Shown here piece by piece: positions 27,364-63,149 of a DNA stretch of 64,000 nucleotides; position 1 is the first letter of the stretch; each line of letters opens with the position of its first letter. This stretch comes from Bacillus sp. ISL-41 (GTDB lineage Bacteria; Bacillota; Bacilli; Bacillales; Cytobacillaceae): contig NZ_JAGGQP010000034.1 of NCBI RefSeq assembly GCF_018613235.1, forward strand, positions 62,001 through 126,000, read 5' to 3'. Position numbers and translations under genes: made by a program. A model generated the notes under the pieces. It did no database searches, was not told the DNA's origin, and saw only the letters and a program-made list of their open reading frames with translations.

Positions 27364-27560
27364 CTTTTACCGAAAAAGGGCTCTGCATCGATTAACGGTC
27401 AAAGCAGAGAGGTTTCTTTTATCGAAAAAGAGCTTTCCATCGAATAACGGGCAAAGCAGAGCCGTTTCTTTTACCGAAAAAGGGCTCTGCATCAAATTAC
27501 GGGCAAAGCAGAGTCCCTCCTTTTACCCAAATTGACTCCACCACCGATTTTCGGTAAAAG
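27364..27560. repeat. 52-bp tandem array, family with ACCGAAAAAGGG core (about 3.5 units)
   Basis: Units begin with CTTTTACC at 27364, 27416, 27468 and 27520, exactly 52 bp apart. Each full unit holds CTCTGC...GCAGAG arms around a loop of about 17 nt. The last unit is diverged and ends near an inverted copy of the core (TTTTCGGTAAAAG). The array fills the 345-bp gap between the convergent M42 peptidase and acyl-CoA dehydrogenase genes; the stretch before it (27290-27363) may hold a decayed unit. Confidence 0.9.
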
Positions 27561-27591
27561 CAAAGGTACCTTCTCACTCTCTCCCCTTTCC

Positions 27592-28806
27592 TTATTTCAG
27601 GGCCTCTTCGGTAACGGACTCAAACGGCCAGGCTGGAAGCATATTGGACAATGGCTTGTCGACTCGATATCCTAATACATATTCTCCCTGCATGACTGTG
27701 TGGATTTCTCGTGTTCCTTCGTAGATGACTGGTGCTTTGGCGTTCCTTAAATACCGTTCAACCGGGTATTCGTTGGAGAATCCGTATGCGCCATGAATTT
27801 GAACGGCATCATTTGCTGATTCATAGGCGTAGTCGCATGCCTGCCACTTGGCCAGGGAGGTTTCCCGGGTATTCCTCTTTCCCTGGTTTTTAAGGCAGCC
27901 TGCACGGTAAACGAGCAATCGTGATTGTACCAATCCTGCTTCCATCTTGGCGATCATCTGCTGGACGAGCTGGTGTCTGCCAATCTCTTTGCCAAAAGTG
28001 CTTCGTTCATGACAGTACTTCACACTAGCCTCAAGGCTTGCCATAATGGTGCCACAAGCCCCCGCAGCAACAGTAAAGCGGCCATTATCCAAGGCAGACA
28101 TTGCAATTTTAAACCCATCCCCCTCATGCCCGAGCAAATTTTCTTTTGGAACCTTTACATTATCAAAGAAAATTTCACCGGTATTTCCGGCCCTAATACC
28201 CAACTTTCCTTTTATCGCTTTAGAGGAGAAGCCCTCCCAGGTTCTCTCCACAATAAAAGCAGAAATGCCGTGGTGTTTTTTACTTTTTTCTGTATACGCA
28301 AATACAAGGAAATGGTCAGCTGCATCACATAATGAAATCCATGTCTTTGAGCCATTGAGTACGTAGTGATCTCCTGCGTCACGCGCCGTTGACTGCATGG
28401 CGGCCACATCGGACCCTGCATTAGGTTCGGTAAGGCCGAATGCTCCTACCTTCTGTCCTTTTGACTGAGGTACCAGGTACTTTTGCTTTTGTTCCTCATT
28501 GCCCCACTGCAGCAACGTCATGCTGTTTAGACCGGTGTGCACCGATACTGCAGTCCTGAAGGCCGTATCGCCCCGCTCGAGTTCCTCACATACTATCGCA
28601 AGGGAATTATAGTCCATTCCGCTGCCGCCATATTGTTCCGGTATACAGACGCCCATGAGTCCCAGGTCAGCAAGCCTTGTTAAAATACTAGTTTCAAAAT
28701 GCTGTTTTTCATCCCATTCTTTTATATATGGCATGATTTCCTTATCGACAAAGCTCCTGACTGTTTTTCTTAATAGCTCTTGCTCTTCAGTAAAATCAAA
28801 ATTCAT
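27592..28806 (-). CDS. Acyl-CoA dehydrogenase
   Basis: A 404-residue dehydrogenase with FGLTEPNAGSDVAAM, NGSKTWISLCDAADH and VIYEGTREIHTVMQGEYVLG. The catalytic Glu lies in YEGT, and the IHTVMQGE tail resembles the glutaryl/short-branched-chain branch. It is followed by an unusual Pro-rich C-terminal extension (SNMLPAWPFESVTEE). ATG start behind AAAGGAGTG. It is downstream of the alcohol dehydrogenase gene but separated by a terminator, so it is probably its own unit. No TetR-type palindrome seen upstream. Confidence 0.88.
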   Translation of the reverse strand: MNFDFTEEQELLRKTVRSFVDKEIMPYIKEWDEKQHFETSILTRLADLGLMGVCIPEQYGGSGMDYNSLAIVCEELERGDTAFRTAVSVHTGLNSMTLLQWGNEEQKQKYLVPQSKGQKVGAFGLTEPNAGSDVAAMQSTARDAGDHYVLNGSKTWISLCDAADHFLVFAYTEKSKKHHGISAFIVERTWEGFSSKAIKGKLGIRAGNTGEIFFDNVKVPKENLLGHEGDGFKIAMSALDNGRFTVAAGACGTIMASLEASVKYCHERSTFGKEIGRHQLVQQMIAKMEAGLVQSRLLVYRAGCLKNQGKRNTRETSLAKWQACDYAYESANDAVQIHGAYGFSNEYPVERYLRNAKAPVIYEGTREIHTVMQGEYVLGYRVDKPLSNMLPAWPFESVTEEALK

Positions 28807-28851
28807 ATCTAGTCACTCCTTTATAAACCTAAGCTGTTAGGAAACTGTAAA

Positions 28852-28883
28852 AAGAGGGTGAATCCGAGACTGATTCCCCTCTT
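28852..28883 (-). terminator. Terminator of the alcohol/aldehyde dehydrogenase unit
   Basis: AAGAGGGTGAATC and GATTCCCCTCTT pair around a short loop; on the minus strand this is followed by a T-run. Confidence 0.85.
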
Positions 28884-28892
28884 AAAACCCAA

Positions 28893-60849: not shown

Positions 60850-60903
60850 TATTATAATCTACTAATTCCTATTAGATAGAATTTGATTTTAGGAGGAGTT
60901 TAT

Positions 60904-62535
60904 TTGAAGAAGAAAGTCGTTTCCTTAAGTTTGACAGCCAGCCTTGCAATCAGCGGATTGGTTGCAGCAACAGGCTTTGCCGCCCCATCAGCAGATTCAC
61001 CATCAAAGAAGTTTACGAAAAGCCATGGCGCACCTGAATTTGTTGCCGGCAAGCTGACAAATCCATCAGAGAAATCAGCAAAGGATATTGTCCTTGGGTA
61101 CCTGAAAGCTTCGAAAGAAAAATACAATCTGGGCACAAATGATAGTTTCGTTGTTAAATCTCAGGAAGCAGACAAGCTGGGCGGAGATGTTGTCCGCCTG
61201 CAGCAGGCCTATAATGGCGTTCCTGTCTGGGGAGCAACACAGGCTGCCAGAGTTGACGAAAACGGCGTTCTTAAGGTTTTTAGCGGAACTGTCAGCAAGG
61301 GACTGGGCGACAAGCTTGTAAAAGTCTCCAGCAAAAAATCTCAGAGAGATGCAATTGCTTCAGCAGAAGCGGATTTAGGCTATAAGCCTGATTATGAAGC
61401 AACCCCAACGGCTGAATTGGTCGTTTACCCTGGTGAGGATCAAGCAGTGTACGCTTACCATGTCACGCTGAACTTCCTGAGCCCTGAACCAGGCAATTAC
61501 CAGTACTTTATCAACGCTGTTACAGGTGAAATTATTAATAAATACAACGCCATTCATACTGCTGGCAAAAACAATCCTTCTTTAAACGGAACAGATACGG
61601 TTGGATCAGGTATCGGAGTGCTTGGTGACACGAAGACGTTGAACACGCTTCTTTCAAATGGCTCTTATTATTTACAGGACAATACTCGCGGAAATGGGGT
61701 ATTCACCTACGATGCCAAGAACCGCCAGAGAACGCCAGGCTCCCTATGGGTGGATACGGATAATAACCTGAACGCAGCTTATGATGGAGCCGCAGTAGAT
61801 GCTCATTACTATGCAGGTCTCACCTATGACTACTATAAAAACACTTTTGGCCGTAATTCATATGACAACAATGGCGCAGCGCTGAAGTCGACTGTCCATT
61901 ACGGCAGAAGTTATAACAATGCATTCTGGAATGGCCAGCAAATGGTGTATGGTGATGGAGATGGCACAACGTTCATTCCGCTATCCGGCGGTCTTGATGT
62001 TGTGGCTCATGAACTGACTCACGCTGTAACGGATTTCAGTTCGGACCTGGTTTACCAGTATGAATCAGGTGCATTGAACGAAGCGATTTCCGATATTTTC
62101 GGAACACTAGCTGAATTCCATGACAACAATGATCCTGATTTTGAAATCGGCGAAGACATCTATACACCAAACACAGCTGGAGATGCCCTTCGTTCTATGA
62201 GTGACCCAACTAAATACGGCGATCCTGATCACTACTCCAAGCGTTACACTGGAACTTCCGACAATGGCGGAGTTCACATTAACAGCGGTATTATAAATAA
62301 AGCTGCCTACCTTCTGAGTGAAGGCGGATCACATTATGGAGTATCGGTCCTAGGAATCGGTACGGAGAAAATGGGAGCGATCTTCTATCGTGCAAACACA
62401 GTGTATTACACATCTTCCACTAATTTCAGCCAGGCACGAGCAGCAACTGTACAAGCAGCAAAAGACCTGTACGGCGCGGCTTCCGCAGAAGTTGGAGCTG
62501 TCAATGCAGCATTTGATGCTGTAGGGATATATTAA
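60904..62535 (+). CDS. Secreted thermolysin-family (M4) neutral metalloprotease
   Basis: A 543-residue preproenzyme. Signal peptide to about the GFAAPS site, FTP/PepSY propeptide ([19 protein letters not shown] and the [14 protein letters not shown] end), then a mature M4 domain with [13 protein letters not shown] (HExxH zinc ligands), the third ligand in [14 protein letters not shown], and [18 protein letters not shown]. It digests extracellular proteins. TTG start behind AGGAGG; the ATG seven codons upstream lacks one. Close to bacillolysin/NprB. Confidence 0.93.
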
Positions 62536-62558
62536 TAGCTTTATATTTATATTTAGAC

Positions 62559-62594
62559 AAACTGGCTCATTTATTATTGTGAGCCAGTTTTTTT
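62559..62594 (+). terminator. Terminator of the neutral protease gene
   Basis: AAACTGGCTCA and TGAGCCAGTTT form an 11-bp perfect stem with a 10-nt loop, followed by TTTT. Confidence 0.92.
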
Positions 62595-62681
62595 ATACTG
62601 CTGCTGATCTCTCGATTTCTGGTTTAAATGAGAGAATGAGTATTAAGGTTTTGAGTAAGCTGGATTGAGGATGAATAATCC

Positions 62682-63149
62682 TGACAGCTTTGGCTTCAGA
62701 TCATGAAAAGTTGTCACAATAACAACGTAATCTTGACAGATTTGCCCTCGTATCCAGAAAAGCTGTCACGAAACCAATGGAATCTTGACAGCTTTGGCTT
62801 CGAAACATGAAAAGCTGTCACAATAACAACGTAATCTTGACAGCTTTGGCTTCGGATCATGAAAAGTTGTCACGAAACCAATGGAATCTTGACAGCTTTG
62901 GCTTCGGATTATGAAAAGTTGTCACAAAACCAATGGAATCTTGACAGCTTTGGCTTCGGATCATGAAAAGCTGTCACAAAACCAATGGAATCTTGACAGC
63001 TTTGGCTTCGGATCATGAAAAGCTGTCACAAAACCAATGGAATCTTGACAGCTTTGGCTTCGGATCATGAAAAGTTGTCACAATAACAACGTAATCTTGA
63101 CAGATTTGCCCTCGTATCCAGAAAACCTGTCAAAAAAGAATCACTATTC
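62682..63149. repeat. 52-bp tandem array, TGACAG/CTGTCA family (9 units)
   Basis: TGACAG recurs at 62682, 62734, 62786, 62838, 62890, 62942, 62994, 63046 and 63098, always 52 bp apart. Each unit holds arms TGACAGCTTT and AAAGCTGTCA (or TTGTCA variants), a loop of about 15 nt and a spacer of about 17 nt. Two loop types (GGCTTCGGATCATG and TTTGCCCTCGTATCC) and two spacer types (AACAACGTAATCT and ACCAATGGAATCT) are mixed, so units have recombined. It fills the gap between the protease terminator and the S-box promoter. Confidence 0.95.

Follow-up and report, generated by a model that had tools for sequence, protein, structure and literature searches.

We analysed a 64,000-nucleotide (nt) stretch of Bacillus sp. 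ISL-41 (contig NZ_JAGGQP010000034.1, positions 62,001 to 126,000; the window, below), which contains three tandem arrays with 52-bp units (arrays A, B and C) and a fourth, minimal element of the array kind. Their window positions are as follows (TRF, Tandem Repeats Finder).

27364 to 27566, no strand: array A, 52-bp units, 3.2 copies in the TRF row 27364-27531 and a further, diverged unit readable to about 27566

31775 to 32352, no strand: array B, 52-bp units, 11.1 copies (TRF), family I, CACCAAT N7 ATTGGTG

62677 to 63137, no strand: array C, 52-bp units, 8.9 copies (TRF), family II, TGACAG.TTT N15 AAA.CTGTCA

55491 to 55552, no strand: minimal family IV element, 62 bp, TGTCCATCAT N7 ATGACGGACA N25 TGTCCGTCAT, with two half-sites of equal direction whose starts are 52 bp apart

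Array A is flanked by a convergent gene pair and has a weak dyad (GCAGAG...CTCTGC), array B occupies the gap between two same-strand genes, and array C is preceded by a hairpin that looks like a terminator by eye and followed, about 150 bp downstream, by an S-adenosylmethionine (SAM) riboswitch (RF00162, 98 bits, window 63284-63396, plus strand). The original prediction, made from the letters of the window, had placed the three arrays correctly, with deviations of a few bases up to some tens, and its 52-bp period agrees with TRF (0% indels in the period-52 rows of all three) and with an independent lag scan (lags 15-300, 75% identity), which returned nothing besides 52 and its multiples. It had also described the three units as different in sequence, as we find: the best mutual identity of the consensuses is 20-21 of 52 positions (gapless cyclic comparison, both strands), at the level of 300 shuffles (mean 21.7, 99th percentile 26, maximum 27), and the units are therefore unrelated in sequence rather than one diverged family. 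The 9-mer it reported on opposite strands of two arrays, ACCGAAAAA, is present by reading in A (plus) and B (minus), and no alignment above chance is gained from it. A CRISPR (clustered regularly interspaced short palindromic repeats) array was ruled out, as the entire 52-bp unit repeats, without unique spacers.

The prediction knew of no described system of this kind, which is wrong. In 176 Bacillus genomes with 4029 arrays, Subirana and Messeguer (2021; PMC8161180) counted 1886 with units of 51-53 nt and 781 with units of 20-21 nt, both of constant length and variable sequence and in families termed species-specific; 20-21 nt was noted as two helical turns, and no explanation was offered for 52 nt. 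The three window arrays are real members of this 52-nt class, published without explanation. Like the class, the arrays studied here have units of 51-53 bp, are non-coding, come in several families per genome, often have a motif with its reverse in the unit and are partly conserved in position. By length (51-53 nt, at least four repeats), B and C belong to it with the copy numbers given above, and A falls short with its 3.2 copies and diverged unit. Table 4 of the same paper gives 49 arrays of 51-53 nt and 30 of 20-21 nt for B. (now Mesobacillus) selenatarsenatis. Protein identity at the locus that we tested is 95% to the nearest named records, including M. selenatarsenatis and M. subterraneus, and the genus of the present genome is probably Mesobacillus, judging by sequence. 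Two further records close to those of Mesobacillus at this locus (93 and 91% protein identity) bear the names Chryseobacterium sp. ISL-80 and Cytobacillus oceanisediminis 2691, respectively, which look wrong.

New here are the 10.4-bp A+T modulation, the symmetric change of dyads, and the persistence of sites with a change of occupant. Unlike in the published account, the length is tied here to five helical turns, one family spans genera, and sites hold different families or classes from species to species. Among the listed titles and abstract openings on DNA curvature, repeats and the periodicity of the helix (from a library that covers few subscription journals and no preprints), none ties the 52-nt length to the helix; the listed works that name the Subirana-Messeguer papers, besides the authors' own two, are one on nanopore assembly and one on Borgs.

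Unit lengths were surveyed in 29 stretches of the same genome not selected for arrays (579,981 bp; the assembly is 4.62 Mb). Among 21 arrays of at least three copies, the units are 52 bp in ten, 53 bp in four and 21 bp in three, with one array each of 12, 15, 20 and 45 bp, so 14 of 21 have 52- or 53-bp units: 52 is strongly enriched, not one value in a broad spread. Twenty of the 29 stretches were picked when the family I places were already known and do not include them, so that any bias would be towards fewer 52-bp arrays. A second lag scan (34 lags; the window plus 20 stretches, of which 11 had been selected for a BLAST match to array B) gave 20 segments at lag 52, one of them a run of N, and 16 at lag 104; 26 lags returned the N run alone, and lags 20, 33, 36, 48, 51 and 53 gave two to four segments each. 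This N run (in stretch L025) was excluded from the array lists for the dyad test and later analyses. The 33 array calls of the genome fall into 11 families; two pairs of calls are pieces of single arrays (one in L024, one across the abutting stretches L115/L116), each of which enters the harmonic analysis by family and the strand and location counts as two pieces. There are exceptions in length (53-bp arrays form a separate family in this genome, and in orthologous arrays a unit is now and then shorter or longer), so the strict absence of slippage that had been claimed holds for the window arrays and not for these.

We then compared the Fourier power of A+T content in unit consensuses with that of shuffles; for 52-bp units, the fifth harmonic (k=5) is 10.4 bp. 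The modulation is strong in array B (power 6.0). Across 28 arrays of the genome with 52- or 53-bp units (those of fewer than three units being excluded), k=5 power is 3.77 as compared to 1.01 in shuffles (z 14.9; for AA/TT, z 10.4), harmonics 4 (z -0.9) and 6 (z -1.9) show no increase, and harmonic 7 has z 2.2. One representative for each of the 11 families gives z 7.2, and controls from the same genome have k=5 power of 1.23 (non-array intergenic 52-mers, n=2154) and 1.04 (coding, n=12849). Published consensus units of other species (27 units, 50-54 nt) give z 10.0 at k=5, 16 of the 27 being singly at P < 0.05, with harmonic 9 as the runner-up (z 2.6). When the units were pooled and 12 of 41 were dropped for similarity to another unit, the remaining 29 had k=5 power of 3.00 (z 10.7, or 9.3 against a null with imposed partial dyad symmetry), and k=5 was the top harmonic among 1-12 in 17 of the 29 families. 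For 19-22-bp arrays outside open reading frame (ORF) calls, the second harmonic (10.5 bp for 21-bp units) has z 8.6 in 26 rows, with some genomes present twice, and 6.8 after the removal of similar arrays (n=13). With five and two A+T cycles per unit, respectively, the two lengths therefore correspond to five and two helical turns.

A prospective test, with the prediction fixed before the data and restricted to arrays outside ORF calls, was made on 800 kb of other genera. All four 51-52-bp arrays found there have k=5 power of 2.2-3.0 (combined P 0.007); two of them overlap ORF calls, and the two that lie outside give P 0.034. Three 21-bp arrays outside ORF calls give a combined P of 0.013, and none of the other harmonics (to 12, or to 6 for 21-bp units) was at P 0.05 in these 800 kb. 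Left out of the combined P values were an array with 22-bp units and 2.8 copies, a 20-bp row that overlaps one of 21 bp, and one 21-bp array located within an ORF call. Phase was kept better than with the same substitutions randomly placed in 25 of 34 arrays (sign test P 0.009; arrays of fewer than four units were excluded from this test and from the substitution test below), and phased A4 tracts gave z 4.5 and 7.0. Modelled curvature (wedge model) exceeds that of shuffles on average. We regard the phase-keeping and the modelled curvature as soft supporting evidence.

We propose that a unit amounts to five helical turns (52 / 5 = 10.4 bp), with A+T-rich and G+C-rich segments alternating once per turn in most families. 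The A+T blocks would then share one face, and the array would be curved or readily wrapped in one direction; the inverted repeat present in many units would make it similar when read from either strand. An indel of a few bases would rotate the following units out of phase, and 52 (five turns) and 20-21 (two turns) would for this reason be kept while the letters drift or are replaced. Selection would act on the facing of the A+T blocks, and hence on bending; a putative wrapping or bridging protein (DNA gyrase, in the manner of the BIME-2 discussed below, or a nucleoid protein) would bind the bent arrays, and copy number may shift by ordinary recombination or whole-unit slippage. Helical phasing is, in our judgement, quite probably the reason for the unit length. 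That DNA shape is kept rather than letters, the arrays being phased bendable DNA with 52 as five turns, is the view towards which we lean. Of the shared mechanism that had been suspected behind the length, a common length constraint stands, with helical phasing of about five turns favoured; a generating machine or recombinase was not borne out. Integer turns together with the A+T/G+C alternation would give a physical reason for both published lengths, and predict curvature, wrapping and effects of phase shifts. Bacterial genomes are also known to have helix-phased A-tracts, with A/T runs every ~10-11 bp (accessible parts of PMC3431218, PMC516772 and PMC4132750); unlike in those, the runs are fixed here in tandem units that each span a whole number of turns.

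Several results weigh against this proposal. Within the window, array B alone has the 10.4-bp signal (k=5 power is 0.6 in A and 0.1 in C), a different harmonic is on top in 12 of the 29 pooled families, and single 51-52-bp arrays never reached P 0.05 in the prospective test. The phase-keeping test is overdispersed (z -3.6 to 4.1), ten of its 34 arrays come from relatives, and the three most strongly phased arrays average -0.6 in it; the curvature model uses unsourced wedge angles, and single arrays range from z -1.8 to 3.6. Substitutions that preserve the weak (A or T) or strong (G or C) state of a position are not in excess: they make up 352 of 660 transversions in arrays and, for intergenic DNA, 730 of 1264, a difference opposite to the expected one (P 0.07). 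If phase alone mattered, units of 31, 42 and 62 bp should occur, and none is found among the 21 surveyed arrays of at least three copies; the only length of this sort named in the legend of the size figure in PMC8161180 is 40-41. The array-binding protein is putative. A preference for gene ends is not significant either, with convergent genes around 9 of 29 arrays compared to 37 of 214 gaps (P 0.08; the gap background is the window plus 20 of 40 stretches) and divergent genes around 4 of the 29 (P 0.25).

Dyad symmetry exceeds that of shuffles (P < 0.05) in 11 of 19 arrays, in line with the motif plus its reverse seen in units of the published class. B (P 0.003) and C (P 0.02) are among the 11 and A, with no excess (P 0.18), is not, so the inverted repeat that had been ascribed to every unit was confirmed in two of the three window arrays. 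As a repeating unit has two reflection centres, the dyad centres are 26 bp (2.5 turns) apart. By reading, families I, IV and V, and the array A orthologues that some relatives carry, have a 7-bp spacer between arms of ~7 to 11 bp, and the arms of family II enclose 15 bp. The former geometry resembles tyrosine recombinase core sites (10-11-bp arms, 7-bp spacer), at which whole units might be gained or lost by site-specific exchange. The 15-bp spacers of family II and of another array (L026), the differences in the 7-bp spacer between arrays, and 21-bp arrays without such geometry (by eye) at the same site all speak against such an origin, and we find it very unlikely.

The dyads would also suit arrays that act at the RNA level, in the form of small RNAs or of hairpins in a transcript. 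This has been proposed for B. coagulans, in which Subirana and Messeguer report transcription of arrays (accessible part of PMC8625621), and the gap of array B is short and operon-like in relatives. In an RNA, arm variants that keep G-U pairs might differ between strands, but 17 distinct sense and 15 distinct antisense variants were counted in 16 co-directional arrays of the genome, so there is no strand preference (at low power), and relatives gave 11 and 12 (L047 counted once). Convergent genes flank 9 of the 29 arrays, several arrays stand behind terminator-like hairpins (by eye), the SAM riboswitch is the only Rfam family over the gathering score in the window (the arrays have no match), and the 10.4-bp A+T phase is not accounted for. 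We therefore see little chance that RNA is the form in which the arrays act.

Family IV (TGTC...CAT N7 ATG...GACA) occurs in the present genome and also in B. coagulans, B. litoralis and G041, a genome from a different family of the order. Cross-genome identity is 28-36 of 52 positions (maximum 29 in a null of 4000), so some array families are old. The arms are TGTCCGTCAT N7 ATGACGGACA in this genome, TGTCCTTCAT N7 ATGAAGGACA in G041 and TGTCGTTCAT N7 ATGAACGACA in B. litoralis, and thus both arms vary jointly; one arm position is unpaired in B. coagulans. In the array A orthologues (47 units), the arm letters are kept and the free positions show no compensation. The dyad letters of many units can change symmetrically from species to species. 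The age of family IV favours inheritance alone, i.e. a few old 52-bp families with rare indels and no selection on phase. Such inheritance explains neither the 10.4-bp modulation in 29 mutually dissimilar units nor why sites otherwise occupied can contain an unrelated family or class, and we consider it unlikely as the whole explanation. A 21-bp array in another genus of the family (L149, 8574-8662) carries the TATCGACCAC motif known from the 21-bp arrays of the present genus; families of the 20-21-bp class, too, may be older than a genus. Single-copy seeds of family V (one-hit clusters at two mismatches) fall mostly within ORF calls and were taken as chance.

The sites themselves are partly conserved between relatives, as in the published class. 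At the array A site, 51-52-bp arrays are found in 7 of 14 same-genus genomes (TRF). At the array B site, the 13 assessable same-genus relatives (one more, L046, lacks the neighbouring genes) have a 52-bp array in three cases, a 21-bp array in seven and none in three. Gaps without an array are 16-42 bp long in six genomes (L034, 33 bp; L041, 42 bp; L047-L050, 16-33 bp), about 39 bp in L035 (by reading) and 355 bp in L051. In a tree of the three neighbouring proteins, several inner branches of which are poorly supported, the 52-bp state occurs in two places, a clade of three and, apart from it, the window's genome, amid 21-bp and empty states; interspecies exchange of the site could be a source of this scatter. 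Seven further sites of the genome were scored in five relatives, giving 34 assessable cells (one cell lay beyond its contig), of which 23 hold an array of the 52/53 class with at least 2.2 copies, three of these with only 2.2-2.3 copies. The occupants, with units compared by reading, belong to the same sequence family in 21 cells; the other two are cells of the L020 site, where 53-bp units of family III stand in place of family I. That site is occupied in all six genomes examined, by family I (52- or 53-bp units) or by family III (53-bp units). From the 23 occupied cells and the family or class differences at the L020 and array B sites, it follows that sites often persist and that their occupants can differ. 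In the array A gap of L035, the array is gone and only the last half-site remains; judging by eye from the ends, short GGT matches may have bounded a deletion.

The 20-21-nt repeats are alike in that they are found at an intergenic site where sister species have 52-bp arrays, and in their one modulation per helical turn; unlike them, the 52-bp arrays have five turns rather than two, and other sequences. At the array B site, the 21-bp arrays of five genomes (L033, L036, L037, L039 and L040) are followed by a similar tail of ~120 nt (by eye), which may be a structured or mobile element that came in with the array.

The arrays combine a fixed integer-turn length, an A+T/G+C alternation per turn (the top harmonic in 17 of 29 families), frequent dyads, and sites that often persist with varied occupants. 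A wider generalization, which we offer tentatively, is that sites in Bacilli inherit shape: a helix-phased dyad array would persist while its family, copy number and turn number (five or two) are swapped, and a conserved protein, e.g. gyrase, would read the phased bend only. According to the accessible part of PMC6379681, the gyrase motif of E. coli has symmetric arms, each with a 10.75-bp periodicity of G+C content, and gyrase sites are enriched in BIME-2 elements (bacterial interspersed mosaic elements). For these reasons gyrase is, among named proteins, the best candidate for a reader of the arrays, by analogy, though a doubtful one. If gyrase or nucleoid-protein platforms they are, many Bacilli would carry a counterpart of BIME built on shape, not on consensus sequence.

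The arrays share with E. coli BIME-2 and repetitive extragenic palindromes (REP) the intergenic palindromic units in inverted orientation and in arrays. Unlike BIME-2 and REP, they have other sequences, a period of 10.4 and no link to a REP-associated tyrosine transposase (RAYT), and binding of gyrase to 52-bp arrays is a candidate property only. Mobile palindromes of the RAYT type (REPIN, REP doublets forming hairpins), amplified by a Y1 transposase, could produce inverted arms with a fixed-length spacer, and the genome has two Y1_Tnp matches above the cut-off (RAYT-like genes at C4:39180-39518, stretch L031, and C23:266630-266956, stretch L032). In such systems, a matching palindrome flanks the RAYT gene, whereas by eye both Y1 genes adjoin palindromes of their own, which are of the GGGGGACGGTTCT and GGGGTCTGACCCC types and differ from the 52-bp units. 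The units are moreover clustered: in 864 kb, with at most one mismatch, several hits are present in 10 of the 13 clusters of family I and in 5 of the 6 of family II, and there is a single family I hit without a weaker copy within 170 bp. BLASTN (E 1e-3) of the 300 bp on either side of 19 arrays found no flanking module in common. A RAYT/REPIN origin is disfavoured by the other palindromes at the Y1 genes and by the arrangement of the units in arrays, and appears highly improbable to us.

Some Bacillus groups are without such arrays. In a genome of another family of the order (L173, 17899-19205), an array with a period of 192 bp and 6.8 copies lies outside ORF calls.

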